IMG/VR virus record: IMGVR_UViG_3300032069_000023
Span: 1-40,353 of that record
Origin: a virus
Reading direction: 5' to 3' (one strand)
DNA: 40,353 bases
Part shown: positions 4,281 through 33,561 of the stretch, in pieces
How the letters are laid out: the number at the start of each line of letters is the position of its first letter
How positions within the stretch are numbered: position 1 is the stretch's first letter
The notes under the pieces: generated by a model
What the model was told of the DNA's origin: nothing
The model's database searches: none
Seen by the model: the letters and a program-made list of their open reading frames with translations, nothing else
Position numbers and translations under genes: made by a program

Positions 4281-4514
4281 TCAATATCCTACTATCAACA
4301 CGCCTACATAGTCGTTTTGCGTAGCAGTTACAGTTACAGTGCTCCCTGACCAACTTGCCTTAACTACTCCAGCGCTTGTCTCGTCTGAAGCTAAAACAGC
4401 CACTATTGTTCCAAATCTGGAAACATAAGTCGCTGTAGTCCCGCCTGTAACCTGTCCCCTGACTATTTCTACGGCTAATAGACCTGTTAACTCTTTCACT
4501 TTTGAAAGTGCCAT
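4281..4514 (-). CDS. Small beta protein, possible capsid decoration protein
   Basis: The protein has 77 residues, predicted all-beta (GTIVAVLASDETSAGVVKAS, TVTVTATQNDYVGVLIVGY), with no signal peptide or membrane segment. The ATG follows a clear GGAGG site (ATGGAGGAATAAACC). It lies in the head operon two genes after the major capsid protein. It shares with the upstream 88-residue protein the pattern of a Thr-rich strand, a Val/Ala strand and a Gly-rich C-terminus, so the two may be paralogues. Capsid cement or head fibre is the likely role, inferred from position and size. Confidence 0.55.
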   Translation of the reverse strand: MALSKVKELTGLLAVEIVRGQVTGGTTATYVSRFGTIVAVLASDETSAGVVKASWSGSTVTVTATQNDYVGVLIVGY

Positions 4515-4580: not shown

Positions 4581-4847
4581 TTACACTACCAATGCAATTC
4601 CTTTGATTGCCCCAGTTGTTGCGCCTGTCAAATTAATCAGATTCGCTGTCGTGTAGTCTACTGTCACTGTGTCTGCTACGGCATCGCTCGATCCGTTTTG
4701 GACATGAGCCGCTGCCCATAGAACTTTTCTGTAACTTCCGAATGTTATTGTGTCATTCTGTGCTGTCTTTGTCGCTGAGAAGTAAATCAAGCTTACTCCC
4801 ATGTGCGGAACGCATTCAATTACTGATTCAGTTAGATCGCTTGCCAT
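4581..4847 (-). CDS. Small beta protein next to the capsid gene
   Basis: This 88-residue protein starts MASDLTESVIECVPHMGVSL and continues with beta-rich sequence (NDTITFGSYRKVLWAAAHVQ, ending TTGAIKGIALVV). It follows the major capsid protein gene by 11 nt with a GAGG-type site (TTAGGAGGCTAAAAC) before the ATG. Size, composition and position suit a capsid-stabilising or decoration protein. No enzymatic motif is seen. I do not recognise a named family. Confidence 0.55.
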   Translation of the reverse strand: MASDLTESVIECVPHMGVSLIYFSATKTAQNDTITFGSYRKVLWAAAHVQNGSSDAVADTVTVDYTTANLINLTGATTGAIKGIALVV

Positions 4848-4858
4848 GTTTTAGCCTC

Positions 4859-5953
4859 CTAAGCCAACGCGTATATCCTATAGCACCAAGCCTCTTGGAC
4901 CATGATCATGGTAAAGTATTCCTTTATCATGAACTTGTATGTATCCGCAGTCTTGGCGAGTTCTTCGAAGGTTGCATCCTGTAGAACTCTAAGCTGTATG
5001 TTTCCCTGTTTTCTTACTGTCAATACTAGCAATTCTCTCTCTGTCGCTGTTGTTGGCATGAACAAATCTGGAACTATCGGGACACCCTCAAAGACGACAC
5101 TTTCGATTCCGAATGCTATATTTCCTGTTGGTGCAGGATATCTTAGCAAGTCCTGAATCAAACCTTTCACGTCATCTAAGGTCTTGTAGTCTGTCACTAT
5201 CAAGTCTGGTTCTCCCTTAGCCTCCCTGATTACTCTGATGGCATCACGAAGCAACGCCAATGTTATCTTTCCTGTTCCCGACTGGTTGGAATAGTTTGTT
5301 GTTATCAAGTCTATCAGACCTTGGAATGCGTTTGCATCCGTCACTCCACCGTCTGTGTCTCCTGATGTCGGATTTCCGTTGATTATTGTGTTTTCCTCAA
5401 GTTCTTTGAGGCTTCTGTATTGTCCTTCAGTCTCTATTTTAAGGGCATCCTGCCATATCTTGCTCGCTACCATCAATGGTCCTGAAAGCTCCCCAACCGC
5501 ATAGGCAAACTTTATTGCGCTTGCCACACGTGCATAGGTCGATTCAGCAGATGCTAGTGCCTGAGTCTCAGCCTTCCATTTTGCCGATGATAGGGCTGTC
5601 CTCTTCACATAATCTGCAAACAAACCACTGTTGGTTACTCTTGGAAGGAGTCCGCTCGCAAGAGGTGTTGCTCGGAATGTCAAATCGTAGAGGCTGGAAT
5701 CAACTACTGTTGGGACTAATACTGGAATACTACCAGATGTTCCTGAGTAAGATGTTCCTACCGCAAACAATGGGGAAGTTGTTGTCAAAGCTTTTATTTC
5801 TGCCTTAATTTCTTCTCTCTTGTCAATCGTTTTTGTCTGGTCCCAAAAACCAGCAAGTCTGTCGAAATAGACAGTTTTGTTCGGTAAATTTCCGAAACTA
5901 GCTTGATAGACTAATTGCTCGTTTATATTTTCAGGCATTTCTCCAAAAGCCAT
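4859..5953 (-). CDS. Major capsid protein, HK97 fold
   Basis: The protein has 364 residues. The N-terminal ~55 residues are charged and helical, a short delta-like scaffold region. The shared segment KALTTTS...PTVVD (54-85) follows, then an HK97-type body: SGLLPRVTNSGLFADYVKRT, YARVASAIKFAYAVGELSG, LEENTIINGNPTSGD (P-domain spine helix and loop), LIVTDYKTLDDVKGL and GVPIVPDLFMP. The C-terminus (KTADTYKFMIKEYFTMIMVQ, then EAWCYRIYALA) is the usual A-domain strand and helix. Length and gene order after the protease are as expected. It assembles the icosahedral shell. The start lies 3 nt beyond the protease stop, so translation is probably coupled. Confidence 0.9.
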   Translation of the reverse strand: MAFGEMPENINEQLVYQASFGNLPNKTVYFDRLAGFWDQTKTIDKREEIKAEIKALTTTSPLFAVGTSYSGTSGSIPVLVPTVVDSSLYDLTFRATPLASGLLPRVTNSGLFADYVKRTALSSAKWKAETQALASAESTYARVASAIKFAYAVGELSGPLMVASKIWQDALKIETEGQYRSLKELEENTIINGNPTSGDTDGGVTDANAFQGLIDLITTNYSNQSGTGKITLALLRDAIRVIREAKGEPDLIVTDYKTLDDVKGLIQDLLRYPAPTGNIAFGIESVVFEGVPIVPDLFMPTTATERELLVLTVRKQGNIQLRVLQDATFEELAKTADTYKFMIKEYFTMIMVQEAWCYRIYALA

Positions 5954-5956
5954 GTT

Positions 5957-7600
5957 TTAACCCCCAAGTCTTTTAACAATGTATGAAACCAAATCCTTTG
6001 GTTCGGATTTAGCTTCTTCAAATTTGTCTGTTGTATCAGACAAATTTTTCTTCTCGGGTATTAAATTCTTCAACTCTTCTTTAACAATCGCCTTGATTTG
6101 ATCTTCAAGGGATGGTTCTGTTTTAGTCTCAGCTTTCGCCTCTGCCTTAGGTTCTTCTTTAACTTCTGGCATAGGTTCCGCTTTGACTGTTTCTTTAACT
6201 TCTTCTGTCAAAATTTCATCCTCCTTTACTTCAGGACCGACTTTGGCAAAATCGCCTATTTCAATCCCGAATTTTTTTGCAGCCCTGATAATTTTTCTTT
6301 TAGCAGTCGCCTTTTCTTCTGCCGACATTCCCTGTGTCTGGTTGAACCTTGCCATTGCATTCCTGACATGGGCTGCATCAAATATCGGCAACTTTTTCAT
6401 TTTCGGAAAAGCATAATATTCTTCTTCTGACATTTTTTTCTTCTCTCGCTCCCCTTCTTGCGCTGTGATTCTTGCCTTCACTGCTTCTTGGTCTTCATCC
6501 TCTTCAGATTCTTTTTCCTTCCCGTATCCTTTCTCCATATCTTTCGCCTCCAATTCTTCCTCATCTGATTTAAGTGATTTCTTCCAATATTCATAATGTC
6601 TTCTCTCATCACTCGCTAATTGTGACTGTCCATAACTCTCATATTCTTCAAAAGCATGTAATTCATCTTTCATAAAGAATTCTTTCTTATCCTTGTCCAA
6701 TTTTTTTGGAGGACCCCTGTCAACAACTGTTGGGATTAAGACAGGTATGCTTCCTTCGATTGGGCTGTATGATGTTCCCACATTTGAAGTCGCAGAAGTT
6801 GTTGTCATTGCTTTCATTGCTTCTTCTGCATCCGCGAGTTCGATGCTTTTTGTAAAACAGTCCACGAGCGTGGAATAAGGATTTGCTGGTCTTGGTGTAT
6901 GTCCGTATCCTTTCAGAAGAACTTTGTTCAAGACTCTTACTTTCTTCCCATCTATGTCTTTAAAACTGAAATCAATCGGCCTGTATTCGATACTCAGACC
7001 ATCATAAAATCCATTCTGGACCTGATTCCAAACTGTTGGAAATTGTGGATGGTCTGGATTGAACATTCCTTCAACCAAAAGTCCTTTGGTATCAACAATA
7101 GCAGAAGTTATCTTGGAAATCGGAGGAAGCATTGGATCATTCTGATGGTAAACATCATGGTCTAGACTTCCTTTCACTCCCCTTACAAATCCCCCCAATC
7201 CGGCATTGACTTGCATGAGCATGTCTTTCATGCATTCCTGCGTCACCAAATCATTCACAAGATCGACATCAAAAGTGCTTAAATATCCCTTGAAATAATA
7301 TTTTCCATCAGCTGCTTTGTATTCAAGTAAATCGGAATAGAAAGGTTCGAAATCAACTTCTTCTTCGTTCTTAGCTTCCCAGCTTTCCCCTACTTTCTTA
7401 TATTTCCTTTTTACAGCATTCCAAGCTATTTTAGCCCTTTCCTCGTCAGTATAAGCCTTGCTTGTCCTAGGATTAGTTTTTCCTTTGAGCGATTCCATTA
7501 TTCTCTCAAAAATTTCCTTTGCATGCTCAGGCATGTTTTCTGGTATTGGCATAAATGCGCCAGCTGGATACATATTTTGTGGAAAGGATTCCTGTAACAC
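5957..7600 (-). CDS. Prohead protease fused to ChaB domain and scaffold
   Basis: This 547-residue protein begins with a ChaB-like domain (about 20-72: ENMPEHAKEIFERIMESLKG, IAWNAVKRKYKKV). An HK97/S78-type maturation protease follows (about 85-250), with a candidate catalytic His in GSLDHDVYH (near 148) and Ser in GLSIEYRP (S203). Residues 263-294 copy residues 54-85 of the capsid protein (23 of 32 identical, no gaps). A highly charged scaffold-like region (295-395), a DUF6582-like segment (AHVRNAMARFNQTQGMSAEE, 410-447) and a Lys/Glu/Pro tail complete it. The protease would trim scaffold and capsid during head maturation. The start is GTG 7600; ATG 7573 is an alternative. Confidence 0.85.
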   Translation of the reverse strand: MLQESFPQNMYPAGAFMPIPENMPEHAKEIFERIMESLKGKTNPRTSKAYTDEERAKIAWNAVKRKYKKVGESWEAKNEEEVDFEPFYSDLLEYKAADGKYYFKGYLSTFDVDLVNDLVTQECMKDMLMQVNAGLGGFVRGVKGSLDHDVYHQNDPMLPPISKITSAIVDTKGLLVEGMFNPDHPQFPTVWNQVQNGFYDGLSIEYRPIDFSFKDIDGKKVRVLNKVLLKGYGHTPRPANPYSTLVDCFTKSIELADAEEAMKAMTTTSATSNVGTSYSPIEGSIPVLIPTVVDRGPPKKLDKDKKEFFMKDELHAFEEYESYGQSQLASDERRHYEYWKKSLKSDEEELEAKDMEKGYGKEKESEEDEDQEAVKARITAQEGEREKKKMSEEEYYAFPKMKKLPIFDAAHVRNAMARFNQTQGMSAEEKATAKRKIIRAAKKFGIEIGDFAKVGPEVKEDEILTEEVKETVKAEPMPEVKEEPKAEAKAETKTEPSLEDQIKAIVKEELKNLIPEKKNLSDTTDKFEEAKSEPKDLVSYIVKRLGG

Positions 7601-25000: not shown

Positions 25001-26623
25001 TTAAGTTGGAGCATAGGTCAGCCTTGTGGAGATAAGTCTGTTTATCCCGCTGACATTCTCTATGAAAGAGCTTTCCGTGATTTTTTTATTGGAAGCGGTT
25101 ATGATAAATTTGATGTTGCCGTAATCGTAAACCAGATCGAAACCAAGTATCCTGAAATAATCATTCAATCCAGCATCAGAATCAACCAGCTCTATCCTGT
25201 CGCCAAGCTTGACTTTGTTGAGGAATTCGAAGCAATCCATCATCTCGAAGGTTATCTCGTAGGTTATTGTGGCGTTCCTGTTCACCCAGAAGCTTGATTT
25301 TAATTCAAGCTGCTTCTCAGATTCATTGCTCGGATCTATGAGGGTTATCTGCCTTAATCCATTCACAGCAATCGAGCTTCCCGCCTGCGGGGAGGATTCT
25401 ATATAATGGACAGAGGAATCATATTGGAAGACCTTGACCAAATTATCATGCGCCACAGCAGTGGTTCCAGACGCCCCCCTTGTGCAGCCAGTGAAGGTAG
25501 TGGCTGTAATTCCTGTGTAAGAAACCACTTCAGTTCCGATAATTATGCTTCCAGAACTGCTGAAATCCGTGGTAGAATCGACTGTTATGGTGGTTGCAGC
25601 CGAGTTAATCCCACCATTCAAGGCAGCATACGCCTTTCCTGTTCCATCATAATATAAAATGCACAGGGTTCCCTTGTAGTGATAGGAGCCGAGGCTTCCT
25701 CCTTGGGTATCCTGCATCAGTATGTCAAAGAAATTTTCAAGCTTGCTTGTCCAAGTAAGAGGAGTCCTGCCGATTAAAGCCACTCCTCTTGCTGGAAATC
25801 CTGCTCCTGTGATCAAGACAACCGGCGTCGCAGTATCTTTCACGCTCTGGTCAAGCTTGTCATAGACAGTGGAGGCAAAAGAGTATTTCGTCCATATCTG
25901 GCTTGTTCCTTCACCCTTGCCGAGATAGATGACCGAATTATAGAGCTTATGGAAATTGTCATTCCTGTCGGATATTATTCCATTTTGGCTGGTGCCGGAA
26001 AGCTCTACTTTGTAGACAGGAGCGAGGCTTCCCCTCCATTCCATAAAATTGAATCCATCTATATTATAAGGAGCATCCCCATTATCCACATACCAATCCC
26101 ATTCGAACTGTTTTGCCAGAGCATCTATGACGCTCAGTTTGTTGTCGTATTCCGCCCTGAAATCAACAGCTTCTCCGAAAGCCTCTATGATATTCGGCTC
26201 TATAATCCAAGGGGAAGAAGCATCATTGTTGAAAGAAAGAACTGTTTTGACAATCGTATTTGGCTCCTCTGTCCAAATGGTTCTTCCATAATATTCCTTG
26301 TTTGCCAGCAGAAGCGCCATTCCAAATCCTTTGACTACGGCAAAACCATCAGTAGTATATTTTATCTCCTCTATCTTGCCCTTCAGGATTAACGTATATT
26401 CAGAAAAAATCTTCACAATCTTCCCATAGGAGACATTCGTATCTGCATTTGTCACATCCTGGAGTTTTATCTCAAAATTCTCAAGCTGGTTTATTTTTTT
26501 GGTGATTCTCAAATAATAGAAGGCGGGATATTCCACTTCGTTTATATAGACAGAGAAATCATCTGGATGCCCATATGGGGCGGAAGGCATTCCTGAAGTC
26601 GGTTCTGTTGGCATTTTTATCAC
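25001..26623 (-). CDS. Baseplate hub / tail protein
   Basis: The 540-residue protein starts at GTG 26623 in a GTGA overlap with the giant fibre gene; ATG 26614 is an alternative. The N-terminal part (DDFSVYINEVEYPAFYYLRI, NQLENFEIKLQD) resembles gp27-like or Gp37-like siphovirus hub proteins. A module of about 70 residues (NSAATTITVDSTTDFSSSGS, then TTFTGCTRGASGTT) is a beta unit seen in many phage tail proteins. The C-terminus (VKLGDRIELVDSDAGLNDYF) is hub-like beta sandwich. It probably joins tail tube to fibre. No lysozyme or peptidase motif is seen. Confidence 0.75.
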   Translation of the reverse strand: MIKMPTEPTSGMPSAPYGHPDDFSVYINEVEYPAFYYLRITKKINQLENFEIKLQDVTNADTNVSYGKIVKIFSEYTLILKGKIEEIKYTTDGFAVVKGFGMALLLANKEYYGRTIWTEEPNTIVKTVLSFNNDASSPWIIEPNIIEAFGEAVDFRAEYDNKLSVIDALAKQFEWDWYVDNGDAPYNIDGFNFMEWRGSLAPVYKVELSGTSQNGIISDRNDNFHKLYNSVIYLGKGEGTSQIWTKYSFASTVYDKLDQSVKDTATPVVLITGAGFPARGVALIGRTPLTWTSKLENFFDILMQDTQGGSLGSYHYKGTLCILYYDGTGKAYAALNGGINSAATTITVDSTTDFSSSGSIIIGTEVVSYTGITATTFTGCTRGASGTTAVAHDNLVKVFQYDSSVHYIESSPQAGSSIAVNGLRQITLIDPSNESEKQLELKSSFWVNRNATITYEITFEMMDCFEFLNKVKLGDRIELVDSDAGLNDYFRILGFDLVYDYGNIKFIITASNKKITESSFIENVSGINRLISTRLTYAPT

Positions 26624-29600
26624 TCAACTGTTGAACTGAATCCGAGTGTGGCGTTTGTAGTAACCCCAGCCGTGCAGTTGCTCAGATAGAAGAACCCCCA
26701 GAAAGTCTGATTGGCATTGATTCCAAGATTTTGTTTCACCATGATATTTGTCGTATTGCTGACATTGAAATCCACGCTCGTCTCCAAGGTGCTGTTTGTA
26801 GAGAGGAAATGGCTCATGCAAGCAGGCAGAGTAGCATTCCAGTATGCACTCACGTTTATATTGCTGTTTCCTATGTTTGTTATGTTCCATATCCATTGCG
26901 AACTTGTCTGTCCTTTCGGGGTGAATGTGCCATTCTGATAGCAACTAGTATTTGATGGTGTGCAGGAGCTCTCGTTTATCAGGTATTTTGTCACGCTGGC
27001 AAGAACATACGGCTTGTAAGTTGAATTCCAAGACGATGTGAAATTCATCGCCTTCGGCCATATGTTGAGCTGGGGTATCCTGAGCAAAAAGGTGGCGTTC
27101 TTCAATACTGAATACAGATGGCTTGTGATGTCCCATAATCCCCAGCCTTCCGAGCTCGTGAAGTTCTTTTTGACGATTGTGTAGCTGTCATAGCTAGGCT
27201 GTGTCGCCCAGCTTATGCCGCTCCAAGTCTGGTTTGTGGAATAATGTAGATAAGTGACGCATGGCTTTGTCGCATTGCAGTTCTCCCCGCCCTGCGAAGT
27301 GGAGACAATCGGCTGCTGATAAAGATTGAGTGTGGCGTTGTCGAAGTAAGGAAGATTTGAGATGTCGAACTTATACCAAGAATATCTCGACGGGGCATAG
27401 ATGATGCTGGAAGGCAGTATGTATGTTATATTGATCGCATCTAGCTGTATTATTCCTGCTGTGTCAGAATGCAAAATAAATGGCACTTGGCAGGGATTCG
27501 AACAAGTAGTCAGATAAGTCTGTATCTCTGATGAAAAGTTCGCTGTTCTGTTCGGTGAATAGGTGGAATTGAATTCTCCCGTATGATTCCATTCCCAAAT
27601 ATCTCCATCTGAAGAGACATCAAGATAAGGACTGATAGAATAGTTGCCTTGTGAAACATTTATTGTAATATTGTAAATTGTGGGAGTCAACGTTCTAGTC
27701 GTATCAGAACTTAATATTGCTCTCCATTTCAGAGACTGTCCTACGTTACTGAAAACTTTAAGTGTTCCTGGAGTCGTCGCTTCCCAAGTGCTTCCTCCAT
27801 TTGAACTCAAGTAATAGGAAATAGACGTCCCTGTGGGAACATTGCTTGTCACGTTTGTTATATTTGCCGTAAAGTAGTAAGAAGAAGTAGAAGTATCTAT
27901 TGCTTGGGAATTTATATATGCACTTGAATAGTAATCGTAATAAGTGTTTAGGAAATACAAATCTCTTGGTAAAGTGGCAAGTTGTTCCCAACATTTTGTC
28001 CATCCATATCCCGCACAATTAGCATATTGGTCCCAACAAACCCAACAGTCACCATCCGTATAGTAGTCAGTTGTGTCACCATACCCCTCTCGATACCCTG
28101 CCCCGCATATATTAAGTGCCTCACCGTAATCAAAAATCAAAGCCACATAGTAAGTGTTTCCAGGAGTCAGTTCAAGCGGCGAGGAGAGATTCCATGTCCA
28201 TGGCATGCTGCAATTATTAGAACAATAGGGTAAATCTGCTTCCGCCAAATTCGAACCCCCAAGAGAACTTCTTATTGCGATTATTTTTGAAGTATATTGC
28301 AGATTTGTGCCAAGATAAATAGTAACATTGGTCAAATACTTTCCCTGTGCTTTAAACGACTGTTGAAATTCTATGTTTTGGTAACCAACCCATGCCCCAC
28401 ATTCTTCATGTGTTTGATTTTCTCTGTCAAAAAGGACTCTATTAATTTTTATTTCTCCATTTGTTATATTACAGTAATTTGTTCCATCTAAATATGTGTT
28501 GGTATCAAAAGTATCAAAAAAATCAACTTTGTTTTGAGCGGGAAATCCGCTTAAATTCAACTTGGCATCTATAATAGTGGCAGTGTTTGGAATCTCGACA
28601 TAGAAAGTATTATTTTGGCTTCCAGTAAAAGTCTCATTCCAAGCTGATTGGCTATTGTTATTTTCTGTTTCTGTGATTGTCTGTGCCCCTATCTTGTATC
28701 CCCCGCTGATTAGATTAGAGCTGTTTGTCCAGACTGTGGAAGAATCATTCGAATCGGTAGTGGTATTCTCAATTGGATAGCCTTTCCATTCCGGCATTTT
28801 GACAAGGAAGCTTGTGTTCAGAATCAAGACTGTCCTCTCCACTTGGGAAGCCGTGTAATTCTCGTGGTTTAAAGTGGCCGTATAATTGAAGGCCTGTAAA
28901 ATGGAGGCATTTGTCATATTTTCAATTTGGTTCAAAGTGAGACTTGTATTGAAGATTGTTCCATTCCTGTATAGAGAAAGATTGCCATAGTTCACAGTTT
29001 TCCAAGCAGTCGCATTGATGGTTTGATTTATAATATAGTTTTTATTTCCCTGAGTTCCGTTCAAGGCGAGATAGATTGTTGTTGTTCCCTTGTTCACGAG
29101 GGCAAATCTATCTATTGAAATATTAGTAGCTGAGTAATTCACGGAAGAGAACGTCAAAGTATAGTTGTATGATGCGTTCCCCAGCAGAATATTCTCTGAT
29201 ACAGACAATGCCGTCAGAGAACTCGCCTTTATCACTCCATCCCTCCAGAGTGAGATATTATAATCGCTGAAGCTCGTCCCGTTCTTCCAGCCTGTCCCGT
29301 TCACGGCCCCTGGATAAGTGTAGCTCTTGTTTGATTCTGTCGCGTTGAGGGCAAGGTGCAGTGAGACATCCCCCCTATTAACTGTGAAGAATTCTGTTCT
29401 TGATGTCGCGGAATAATTCGCTGTAGAGGTAAAATTGCAGGTGAAGTTATAGTCCTGAGCAGCCAGTTGGGTGTTGTATTCCCCTCTGGTTGTTGAATAA
29501 GTGCCCACATAAGTTCCGTTTCTGGTGATGTTCAGCCACAGTCCGGTTGTGTTTATGAGGCACGTTGCGTTCTCGGCGGCAGGATAGACAGTAGCTTTGT

Positions 29601-32600
29601 TGGCATTCAGAGTCCCATTGAGCCACATATTTATCAAGACATCCGCCTTCTTTTCAAACAGCCAGTAGTTCTTTGTCGCAGCCGAGTAATTTGTATTTCC
29701 AGCCGTATAGTAGGTAAAATTATATGTGCCGTTCCCAAAGACGATGTTCAGGCTTACTGGGTTTGTCGTGCCTATCGAAGTCGTGTTGTTATATAAAGTG
29801 AATGTGATGGTCTGCCCGGCGAAGACTGATGCGGTGTAATTTCCAGTAGCGTTTATCGCGGCTGGATATGTGTAGCTCCTGTTGGTCTCAGTCCCGTTCA
29901 GGGTCAGGTTCATGAAATTGGACGTGGTTGTGTTCTGCGAGATGTAGACAATCGAAGAGTTGATTACTCCGGTCGCGTTGCACGTGAAGTTGTATCCCGC
30001 TGCTCCGTATCTTATCAGGCTGTTGTTGAAGGCTGTCGCCGAAGTATCATTCTTGTAGAGGTTGCATGTGGTTCCTAAGAAACTATAGCAGGTCACATTG
30101 GAAATCACTCCATATGTTGTGTTCCATGTCGTCATATCAAGTCTGCATCCTGGCGGGTTGGTTGTCGTGTATGTGAAGATTGATGATGCGTTCCAGTTCG
30201 ATGGAGACGCTGTGTCATTGACATATTCCCTCCATCCTACTACCTGTCCGGGAGGCGGAGCGGTTTTTGTCACATTCAACCATGTGCCTGCTCCGAAAGC
30301 CACTGCTGAATCATTAACCCATTGGTAACCGCCGCCGGAATAGTTCCAGAACCATGTATCGTTGTATCTCACCCCGCCCCCTATGTTCCCACCCACAAGA
30401 ATCATCCCGTCGATTACATAGGAATACCCGTATCCTACCCTATACGGCAAAACAGACGAGGAATTTGTGACGTTCTCCCACTTCATGGTCGCGTAATCAA
30501 AAAGCCAAGAATTGCTGGAATTCGCATTATAATCTATACTTGTGCAGTCCGAGTGCGAGCCCGAGCCCGTCAGGCACGATTGTCCGTATATCATCATGGT
30601 CTTGCCCAACTCCGGATTGAAGACCATCCCGGGCTCCTGAGTCCATTCTGGGTTTCCTGTCACCACACTTGTGAGATTAATCCAGGTGTTGTTGGAATAG
30701 TTGTATGCCCAAGTCTCGTTATAGAAATACCAAGTCGATGGGGTAGCGCTTAATGTATTTACGCCGCCAAAGAGAATTGTCATGTTGTTCTTGCTGTCGA
30801 AAGCCAGTCCCGGAGCATCATTGGAAACCGGCATGAGTGCTGGGTTCATATTCATCCAAGTCATGTTGCTGTAGTTGAAAGCGTAAGTTATTTGTCTAGT
30901 AGATACTCCATCAAACCCCCCCGATAGTATTGTGACATTGTTACGACTGTCAAAAGCGCAGCTGTGGTAATATCTTGCTGCTGGTGCCCCTGTCACAGTC
31001 AATACCCCCCAGGTGTTGTTTGTGATGTTATACTGCCATGTATCCGCCAAGTTTCCAGCCGAATATCCGCCAAACATTATCAAAATATCATACTGAGAAT
31101 CGTATACCAGACAATGTCCGTGTCTCGGTGCTGGGCAGGTTGCGCCGCACTTGACGGTTATCAGATTCCAAGTGTTGTTGATTGTTGAGAATGAGTATGT
31201 TGAATTGACATCTCCGACATCTGGAATAGAACCACCGAACTTCCACGAGACGTTCCTCTTGCTGTCAAAAATTACTGTCTTGCCGGCTAAGACACTGTAA
31301 TCAGAAATTGTGTTGTTTGTGATGTTCGTCCAGTTGTTCGCCACATTGGAGAGGCTCCCGTTCCAGCTGAAGATACCGACAGACAATCCTGTCGCATCAG
31401 TCCAATTTAAAGAATGATTTATAGCAGAATTTCCGAGAGTAGAGTTAGTCTGATTGAGAGACCATTTTGGAGGTGTTGTGTCTGTCTGTTCCCCTGGACC
31501 GAGCCTTGTCATGTTGTTTATACCTTCATACCACATGTTAAGTTCTTCTGTTGAGGTTAAGGTCCTGTTGTAGATTCTGAGTTCATCAATCAAGCCGTTA
31601 ATTCTCCCAGCGCTTCCACCATCAGAACCGATATAAATGGTGCTCGTTTGCGCTGCCATGGCAGGAGCCATAGCAACTGAATTTGAATATATTCCATTGA
31701 TATATCCCACGACATGGGTAGCATTCCTCACACAGGAAATCAGAGTCCAAGTATTGATAGGTATGGATGTCCCAGTTGTGAATTCATAAGCGTTCGTTCC
31801 ATCTCCCCAGAGGCATCTCAAGGAATCGGTAGAAGAAACACTCATATAATATGCCTGGCAAGGAGCATTCCAGTTACTAATTACATTTTCATCGCCACCT
31901 GTATCTGACAGCCTGTAAATCCATGCTGAGACAGATGTGATAACTGGATTCAATCCAGCATTGTTGGTCACGGTAACACCGGCAGAAGTGGCAGTTTTCT
32001 GTAGAGCTATTCCAAATCTTCCAGAAGTATTAAAACTCGCTCCTGCTTGCAATGTTCCAGTATTGCTATTGCCAGAGCTATCAGAGGCATTTGTTCCTGA
32101 GCCCTCGCCAAAATGCCAGACTGCTCTGGTGTCATTCCCCCAGACAACAGTAGGAGAATTGCCCGTCCTGTTTGTCTCGTTCTCCCAGAATTTCTCATTG
32201 GTAGTGTTTGCTATTGCTATCAATCCAGTGGCGCATCCAGAGACGCTACAATAGACATAGCTCTCGTTGTTCTGCCTCGTCCAGTAGACATCTCTTCCGC
32301 CAATCTTATAAGTGTCATTAGCGGCAATAACCATCTCCGAGGTCGTGTTCACGATTATCGGGTATCTGACCGAATAGGTGGCGTCCCACCATGGATCGAG
32401 AATGAAGTCCACGTCAGCTATGTTCAGCCCGAACTTCCAGTAGATTCTTCTCGTCCCGAGCTGCGGAGGATATTTGACCCTGATTATGAACTTTCTGACT
32501 TGATTCTTAGAAAATGGGGCTGTGCTTATGTCCTGCTCGACTTCCTCTGTGTTTTTCACCAGATGCCATCCCGTTATCTGGACCGAGCAGTTTGCTATCG

Positions 32601-33561
32601 TAGTCCCGTTCGGGGCGGTGTAAGGATTGCAGACGTCCCCCCACTCAGCAATGTTGCTCACGCTCGTCTTCTGGACAATCTCCTTCACTTCCACGGAATC
32701 TATATTCGTCCCAACAACGTTCGAGATGAATGACTTCAGCAAACTCTCGTTCTTGTAATCATAACTTATCTTGCAGGTCCATTTCAACGCAGGCCATGTC
32801 CTCCACAGTTCAGCCTGCCCTGTCAGGAGATACGTGCCGTTCGGGAACTTCTGAGAGAGCTCCTCTATTACTTTGCAGTCCCCCAGACTGGTGCCGTTGA
32901 TATGCCTGTAGTCTGTGGTGCCCTTGCCCCATTCGCTGCTGCTCTCGTTTATCGCATCGCATTGGTAATAGCACCCTGACTTCTCCGTGGAGACTTTGGT
33001 TAATGGTATCTTGAAAGTCGTCGAGTCTCTTATCTCCAGAATCGCGTAGCTCTCTGTCAGGCCAGCAGAAGATTCCTTCAGAGTTACAAAATCTGTGGTC
33101 GAATATCCCTCGAAGACTGGGTCGTAGTCGTTTATCAGTCCTGTCTTCAGGCCCCACTTCACAGTCTTGTCTATAGGCTTCTCGACAACAACCTTGAATT
33201 CATACTTGGTCTCGTTCTTCAGGCAGGTTCCGGCCTTGAAATTATAAATCTTCCATCTGGCAGGATTGTCCGCCCTGTATCTCATATCGGCCTTGTAGAC
33301 AGTTAGATTGATTCCGTTGGTGTCATTAAGATATAATTGGAAGGTGCTTCCGAAGCAGAGATTCCAGTCCGTCAGAGAGATGTTGAAATAGGCAATGCAT
33401 GGCTCCTCTGAATTTCCCGCGCATTTAATAATCTTCTCGCCCAATTCGACTGTTATCCCGTAGTTTGTCAGAGTCGCCAGAAATGCAAGAAAAGCTATTA
33501 ATCCTGTTCCACCATAGACGAATAATTTTTTCGTCTTGCTCATTGCTCTCTTGGTTGTCAT
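26620..33561 (-). CDS. Giant adhesin-like tail fibre with host-type surface domains
   Basis: The 2313-residue protein has an N-terminal membrane segment (about 13-32, LFVYGGTGLIAFLAFLATLT) and a cysteine-containing region up to about 390. A DUF2341-like domain (about 398-455, YSVRYPIIVNTTSE), a LamG/concanavalin domain (about 470-685, WHFGEGSGTNASDSSGNSNT) and Kelch repeats (about 790-1080, GHCLVYDSQYDILIMFGGYS) follow. Next come four tandem Ig-like repeats about 92 residues apart (starting near 1216, 1309, 1400, 1495), a Cys- and aromatic-rich segment (about 1660-1940) and a DNRLRE-like beta domain (about 2050-2190). Sequons are abundant. Between the probable distal-tail and hub genes, it is the probable receptor-binding or glycan-binding fibre. 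An alternative is a host-surface protein. Confidence 0.75.
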   Translation of the reverse strand: MTTKRAMSKTKKLFVYGGTGLIAFLAFLATLTNYGITVELGEKIIKCAGNSEEPCIAYFNISLTDWNLCFGSTFQLYLNDTNGINLTVYKADMRYRADNPARWKIYNFKAGTCLKNETKYEFKVVVEKPIDKTVKWGLKTGLINDYDPVFEGYSTTDFVTLKESSAGLTESYAILEIRDSTTFKIPLTKVSTEKSGCYYQCDAINESSSEWGKGTTDYRHINGTSLGDCKVIEELSQKFPNGTYLLTGQAELWRTWPALKWTCKISYDYKNESLLKSFISNVVGTNIDSVEVKEIVQKTSVSNIAEWGDVCNPYTAPNGTTIANCSVQITGWHLVKNTEEVEQDISTAPFSKNQVRKFIIRVKYPPQLGTRRIYWKFGLNIADVDFILDPWWDATYSVRYPIIVNTTSEMVIAANDTYKIGGRDVYWTRQNNESYVYCSVSGCATGLIAIANTTNEKFWENETNRTGNSPTVVWGNDTRAVWHFGEGSGTNASDSSGNSNTGTLQAGASFNTSGRFGIALQKTATSAGVTVTNNAGLNPVITSVSAWIYRLSDTGGDENVISNWNAPCQAYYMSVSSTDSLRCLWGDGTNAYEFTTGTSIPINTWTLISCVRNATHVVGYINGIYSNSVAMAPAMAAQTSTIYIGSDGGSAGRINGLIDELRIYNRTLTSTEELNMWYEGINNMTRLGPGEQTDTTPPKWSLNQTNSTLGNSAINHSLNWTDATGLSVGIFSWNGSLSNVANNWTNITNNTISDYSVLAGKTVIFDSKRNVSWKFGGSIPDVGDVNSTYSFSTINNTWNLITVKCGATCPAPRHGHCLVYDSQYDILIMFGGYSAGNLADTWQYNITNNTWGVLTVTGAPAARYYHSCAFDSRNNVTILSGGFDGVSTRQITYAFNYSNMTWMNMNPALMPVSNDAPGLAFDSKNNMTILFGGVNTLSATPSTWYFYNETWAYNYSNNTWINLTSVVTGNPEWTQEPGMVFNPELGKTMMIYGQSCLTGSGSHSDCTSIDYNANSSNSWLFDYATMKWENVTNSSSVLPYRVGYGYSYVIDGMILVGGNIGGGVRYNDTWFWNYSGGGYQWVNDSAVAFGAGTWLNVTKTAPPPGQVVGWREYVNDTASPSNWNASSIFTYTTTNPPGCRLDMTTWNTTYGVISNVTCYSFLGTTCNLYKNDTSATAFNNSLIRYGAAGYNFTCNATGVINSSIVYISQNTTTSNFMNLTLNGTETNRSYTYPAAINATGNYTASVFAGQTITFTLYNNTTSIGTTNPVSLNIVFGNGTYNFTYYTAGNTNYSAATKNYWLFEKKADVLINMWLNGTLNANKATVYPAAENATCLINTTGLWLNITRNGTYVGTYSTTRGEYNTQLAAQDYNFTCNFTSTANYSATSRTEFFTVNRGDVSLHLALNATESNKSYTYPGAVNGTGWKNGTSFSDYNISLWRDGVIKASSLTALSVSENILLGNASYNYTLTFSSVNYSATNISIDRFALVNKGTTTIYLALNGTQGNKNYIINQTINATAWKTVNYGNLSLYRNGTIFNTSLTLNQIENMTNASILQAFNYTATLNHENYTASQVERTVLILNTSFLVKMPEWKGYPIENTTTDSNDSSTVWTNSSNLISGGYKIGAQTITETENNNSQSAWNETFTGSQNNTFYVEIPNTATIIDAKLNLSGFPAQNKVDFFDTFDTNTYLDGTNYCNITNGEIKINRVLFDRENQTHEECGAWVGYQNIEFQQSFKAQGKYLTNVTIYLGTNLQYTSKIIAIRSSLGGSNLAEADLPYCSNNCSMPWTWNLSSPLELTPGNTYYVALIFDYGEALNICGAGYREGYGDTTDYYTDGDCWVCWDQYANCAGYGWTKCWEQLATLPRDLYFLNTYYDYYSSAYINSQAIDTSTSSYYFTANITNVTSNVPTGTSISYYLSSNGGSTWEATTPGTLKVFSNVGQSLKWRAILSSDTTRTLTPTIYNITINVSQGNYSISPYLDVSSDGDIWEWNHTGEFNSTYSPNRTANFSSEIQTYLTTCSNPCQVPFILHSDTAGIIQLDAINITYILPSSIIYAPSRYSWYKFDISNLPYFDNATLNLYQQPIVSTSQGGENCNATKPCVTYLHYSTNQTWSGISWATQPSYDSYTIVKKNFTSSEGWGLWDITSHLYSVLKNATFLLRIPQLNIWPKAMNFTSSWNSTYKPYVLASVTKYLINESSCTPSNTSCYQNGTFTPKGQTSSQWIWNITNIGNSNINVSAYWNATLPACMSHFLSTNSTLETSVDFNVSNTTNIMVKQNLGINANQTFWGFFYLSNCTAGVTTNATLGFSSTVE

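Follow-up and report, generated by a model that had tools for sequence, protein, structure and literature searches.

The predicted head maturation protease of a probable archaeal tailed virus carries a copy of the capsid protein's putative scaffold/N-arm junction

The window analysed here is the whole 40,353-nucleotide stretch of DNA in IMG/VR record IMGVR_UViG_3300032069_000023, and its source is a tailed virus, probably an archaeal one. Genes coding for a head maturation protease and a major capsid protein adjoin each other on the minus strand, with the protease gene transcribed first, and this adjacency is also kept in relatives. The features of the two genes are as follows.

5957..7600, minus strand: head maturation protease with a scaffold-like tail, 547 residues (phrog_80, E 2e-8; fold resembling T4 gp21 and herpesvirus proteases)
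7370..7546, minus strand: ChaB-like N-terminal domain of the protease, residues 19-77 (PF06150, E 6.5e-6)
6863..7324, minus strand: protease catalytic domain, about residues 93-246 (model confidence about 90)
7157-7159, minus strand: conserved H148 of the protease (H148 in 40/44 aligned proteases)
6992-6994, minus strand: conserved S203 of the protease, the catalytic serine (S203 in 44/44 aligned proteases)
6845..6850, minus strand: K251-S252 of the protease, putative ancestral self-cleavage step just behind the catalytic domain
6719..6814, minus strand: protease residues 263-294, copy of the capsid delta/N-arm junction (KAMTTTSATSNVGTSYSPIEGSIPVLIPTVVD)
6809..6814, minus strand: K263/A264 of the protease, putative added self-cleavage step (hydrophobic-K-A-hydrophobic, like the capsid IKAL)
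6530..6694, minus strand: two predicted helices in the protease, residues 303-357 (AlphaFold2 model, moderate confidence)
6254..6463, minus strand: DUF6582 domain of the protease, residues 380-449 (PF20223, E 6e-13)
5960..6109, minus strand: conserved C-terminal end of the scaffold-like tail, residues 498-547 (aligns with the L005 and L003 protease tails)
4859..5953, minus strand: major capsid protein, 364 residues, HK97 fold (SU10_MCP, E 5e-13; HK97 Head II, TM-score 0.72 on the target)
5699..5794, minus strand: capsid residues 54-85, original junction and start of the N-arm (conserved in 43 aligned capsid sequences)
5789..5794, minus strand: K54/A55 of the capsid protein, putative maturation cleavage step (by analogy with HK97 K103/S104)

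Protease residue numbers rest on the GTG start at 7600, which we judge too early because relatives begin at a methionine equivalent to residue 17 (7550-7552); the true start is probably the ATG at 7552, with a protein 16 residues shorter. On the features tested the two proteins belong to the prohead protease and HK97 capsid families, and the gene identities proposed in the initial annotation are borne out by the phrog_80 and SU10_MCP matches and the predicted folds. The top structural matches of the catalytic domain are T4 gp21 and herpesvirus proteases, and the capsid model matches HK97 Head II at E 4e-14 (target TM 0.72) along with many others. The window protease falls below detection of PF04586 (Peptidase_S78) in the domain search, matching phrog_80 instead; relatives within the same protease alignment match PF04586. 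Directly behind the capsid gene are two small minus-strand frames (4281-4514 and 4581-4847) with no PHROG matches, whose position suggests decoration or head-completion proteins. Elsewhere in the window, the minus-strand frame at 26620-33561 (2313 residues, Asn/Thr-rich, with an N-terminal hydrophobic stretch) looks like a very large surface or tail protein.

Protease residues 263-294 and capsid residues 54-85 align without gaps with 23/32 identities, and the coordinates, residue numbers and identity count in the initial annotation are all exact. BLASTP aligns the protease with the capsid protein at E = 1e-10 (extension upstream adds one gap and brings the count to 27/46 identities), an N-arm profile built from seven capsid proteins matches the window protease at E 9e-13, and the capsid protein searched against the whole record matches only at its own gene and at the protease segment. 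At the nucleotide level 63/96 bases match, and the same codon is used for 11 of the 23 identical residues, where independent draws by codon usage predict 7.4. An artefact, either chance similarity or a duplication arising in assembly or sequencing, is scarcely credible; occurrence in a single genome is all that speaks for it, whereas chance is ruled out by the BLASTP score together with 200 shuffles of both proteins in which the best ungapped 32-mer had 12 identities, and an assembly duplicate is excluded because it would be identical and 33 of the 96 bases differ.

When the capsid protein is aligned with 42 relatives, the segment proves to be the start of a conserved mature-type sequence (KALxTxxGGAGTAGYALxPxYVD) directly preceded by a less conserved charged region, in agreement with the earlier description of a charged delta-like region ahead of it. 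The window protein has a charged N-terminal region of 53 residues and then the K-[A/S] junction; 34 of the 43 sequences have K in column 54 (several others have K or Q one place off), all 43 have A or S in column 55, and L or I predominates in column 56. Modelling the capsid protein, as had been suggested for placing residues 54-85, shows that they overlap a disordered stretch (residues 50-83). In HK97 the capsid protein is proven to be cut at K103/S104, at the start of the flexible N-arm (PMC10275583), a site that reads K-S-L in the gp5 sequence, and before cleavage the beginning of the N-arm is disordered in both HK97 and D3 (PMC10275583, PMC12749128). Given the start of conserved sequence, the HK97 K-S parallel and the disorder at 50-83, homology identifies residues 54-85 as the junction between scaffold (delta) and N-arm in this HK97-fold protein, and by analogy we infer that the capsid protein is cut at K54/A55. 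A literature search found no published N-termini of HHTV-2-type capsids, solved structures gave only weak matches by sequence (the best being the SPO1 capsid), and the HFTV1 virion capsid protein, which lacks residues 1-100 (PMC12494034), is too remote to place the window site.

The segment is conserved among capsid proteins and not among proteases, as the alignment of homologues proposed earlier now makes clear. None of the five closest proteases, of which one is 66% identical, has anything equivalent to residues 263-294, and the capsid N-arm profile found the block in none of 76 other proteases (next best E 0.75). Comparison of 73 distinct proteases with neighbouring frames of at least 150 aa at their own loci gave no capsid-like stretch. 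IMG/VR scans with the whole protease and with residues 255-370 did not find the block elsewhere. When GSIPVL[IV]PTxVD was searched for as a degenerate DNA pattern, the only IMG/VR matches were two capsid genes and GTDB genomes had none; nor did GTDB genomes yield any capsid relatives. Since the block is missing in the sampled proteases, it is an insertion restricted to the window virus, or to near relatives outside the sample. The initial annotation would have taken proteases of related viruses lacking the segment as refuting its interpretation; the 32-residue block is indeed lacking there, whereas a short K-[A/S] signal is present, and the lack refutes conservation across relatives, not function in the window virus.

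The segment stands between the catalytic domain, which ends near residue 246, and the scaffold-like tail, so that the domain boundaries agree with the bridging position first described for it, and residues 266-301 are disordered in the model. This linker is a recombination hot spot in which DUF6582, DUF5661 and other small modules are found. The DUF6582 domain lies further along the linker in the window protease and in that of L006 (4572-5981), and this region is 63% identical between the two, while their catalytic regions are about 31% identical. The L004 protease linker carries DUF5661, and those of L050 and L066 carry other small modules common to neighbouring frames; the linker therefore seems to trade small domains (ChaB, DUF5661, DUF6582). 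The IMG/VR scan with residues 255-370 found no relative of the two helices at 303-357. In L050 and L066 a KYxKRTGSPGxYxY module is common to the protease linker and a long upstream frame of the same virus (L050:4738-5376 with L050:2010-4736; L066:3215-4882 with L066:290-3166).

A shorter form of the junction signal is found throughout the protease family. K251 is present in 44/44 aligned proteases, followed by S in 43 and A in one, and then mostly by L, I or M; it is as invariant as the catalytic serine, yet it lies in a low-confidence stretch of the model just past the folded domain. HK97 gp4 has MKS where the window protease has K251-S252. The pattern hydrophobic-K-[A/S] occurs 135 times in protease tails versus 28 expected from shuffles, and with a following hydrophobic residue 66 times versus 6, an enrichment that may come partly from coiled-coil composition, as hydrophobic-K-D (2.4-fold) and hydrophobic-K-E (1.5-fold) are also raised there. 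Capsid delta regions contain 28 occurrences against 7 expected, the capsid body shows no enrichment (29 versus 27 expected), and the mirror pattern is not enriched. In the L025 (5007-6440) and L028 (4932-5975) proteases, KKALSTQSG sits where an inserted module adjoins the acidic tail; with weak scores, it closely resembles the capsid junction of their family (ELKALNTQTGG in the L025 capsid). A capsid-type signal with a putative role in cleavage thus lies between the catalytic domain and the tail both family-wide, as K251-S252, and here, as the 32-residue block. From these patterns we infer that proteases of this family cut at K-[A/S] and that their own linkers and tails are among the substrates; S78-type prohead proteases in general may be released at the K-[S/A] behind the catalytic domain. 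The cleavage signal common to both proteins proposed in the initial annotation is the best reading and is strengthened by the family-wide K-[A/S], with cutting itself the presumptive part.

The comparison of the two copies bears on how long the segment has been in the protease. Three blocks, KA[ML]TTTS, VGTSYS and GSIPVL[IV]PTVVD, keep 23/25 residues, and the two spacers between them (4 and 3 residues) match at 0/7 residues and 4/21 bases, which is the chance level; among capsid proteins 3-7 of these 7 spacer residues are conserved. The two copies differ at synonymous sites by 1.22, and the window and L005 capsid genes by 1.33 over the same stretch; at nonsynonymous sites the copies differ by 0.30. 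Recent duplication or gene conversion is ruled out by the third-position identity within the blocks (13/25) and the synonymous divergence of 1.2. A recent recombination, as first suggested, is likewise contradicted, the silent-site divergence being about equal to that between orthologous capsid genes of different viruses. With the saturated spacers taken as an internal clock, the copy appears to be old, having long been separate in the protease with its blocks retained. For the 9 differences, a run test returns p = 0.02; in a neutral simulation with equal branches the mean was 11/32 identical residues and 23 was never reached in 3000 runs, and agreement came at a relative nonsynonymous rate of about 0.2-0.3. 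These measures of age and constraint refer to 32 residues of one genome, with silent sites nearly saturated and block borders set after seeing the data. On this footing the copy looks to be under selection, with three blocks kept and two spacers randomised. Its origin lies in the window virus's own capsid lineage, since V65 and S68 are common to the copy and the virus's own capsid protein against its closest relatives (L001, L002, L004, L005).

The fragment could instead be a passenger, captured fairly recently by illegitimate recombination from the capsid gene of a sister virus, with the silent differences predating the capture and no role in the linker. In simulation, the amino-acid identity is also reached if the fragment has been in the protease only briefly, the linker is the kind of hot spot in which such captures occur (DUF6582, DUF5661, other modules), and the block is not found in relatives. 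Nevertheless, the copy has randomised spacers where all capsid relatives conserve them, which needs a long residence, the blocks beside them have lost only two of 25 residues, and V65 and S68 set the copy and the virus's own capsid protein apart from the four closest relatives; we regard such a capture as quite improbable.

The explanation we favour, and consider on balance probable, is that the protease linker is self-processed at capsid-type sites and has here captured the whole junction. A capsid maturation junction, comprising the K-[A/S] step and the start of the N-arm, would have been captured into the flexible linker of a protease that cuts after Lys in hydrophobic-K-[A/S], with K54/A55 as the capsid site. 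Self-cleavage would then fall at two steps, the ancestral K251/S252 and the added K263/A264, parting the catalytic domain from the tail of helices, DUF6582 and scaffold end as the shell is trimmed. There is precedent in SPN3US gp245, which sheds a C-terminal propeptide by cutting itself at the motif it recognises in the capsid protein (PMC10052503). Against the favoured explanation, K251/S252 would already serve self-cleavage without an added block, and the 32-residue block is in one genome only.

Cleavage alone does not account for conservation that extends up to 31 residues past the putative cut (VGTSYS...GSIPVLxPTVVD), so that a second role, binding of the segment or the freed tail in the shell's N-arm site, deserves serious consideration. 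In a specific form of this idea, which we think rather unlikely, the cut at K263/A264 would leave the tail with a new N-terminus replicating the mature N-arm, which would insert into N-arm sites of the shell, anchor the tail (helices, DUF6582 and scaffold end) in the head and evolve with the virus's own capsid protein. Binding is also the basis of the leading rival as a sole explanation, in which the segment is a mimic kept for occupying capsid N-arm sites on a neighbouring subunit and so bringing the protease or its tail into the prohead or keeping it there, with cleavage incidental or absent. The kept blocks include GSIPVLxPTVVD, a part of the N-arm well behind the cleavage step, and they match the virus's own capsid at 23/25 positions versus 20/25 between the window and L005 capsids at similar silent divergence, as expected if a fit to its own shell is needed. 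Against mimicry, the nearly invariant capsid T72 is replaced by I in the copy and L62, F63 and A64 are also lost, relatives manage without the block, and the N-arm disorder before cleavage in HK97 and D3 (PMC10275583, PMC12749128) means that an ordered N-arm site may not exist at the time of recruitment. We consider mimicry unlikely to be the whole account.

How HK97-type maturation proteases are recruited into proheads, and how they later exit, is poorly understood. A protease with its substrate's junction block is a natural chimera that points to K-[A/S] as the cleavage step, to self-processing as the way out and, possibly, to anchoring at the N-arm site, and the family-wide invariance of K251-S252 provides a simple prediction for many unstudied tailed viruses.

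The nearest named capsid relatives are those of HHTV-2 and HCTV-2 (26% and 24% identity), haloarchaeal tailed viruses of the Saparoviridae that have the same protease-capsid gene order and differ in having no significant stretch common to the two proteins. HK97 gp4 and gp5 are alike in gene adjacency, the capsid delta domain and a K/S cut at the base of a flexible N-arm (PMC10275583), and gp4 also has K-S behind its catalytic domain. However, gp4 has no copy of the capsid junction, its best match to gp5 being a weak, unrelated stretch, and it has no ChaB, no DUF6582 and a shorter tail. SPN3US gp245 and T4 gp21 share the catalytic fold, and gp245 moreover cuts itself at the capsid motif with loss of its C-terminal propeptide (PMC10052503), an event that is putative in the window virus. 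The signal in gp245 is the three-residue A-X-E, a different motif and not a homologous capsid block. Herpesvirus assemblin resembles the window protease in fold and as a protease fused by a linker, which may be self-cleaved, to a scaffold-like tail. The release and maturation sites of assemblin resemble each other and both lie in the protease-scaffold, the capsid protein not being the source of the site. To our knowledge, in a literature covered only in part, no protease with a homologous capsid-junction block has been described. By analogy, the window system may resemble a self-processing protease-scaffold precursor of the gp245 or assemblin type; the novelty lies in the nature of the shared signal, a block homologous to part of the shell protein instead of a short motif.
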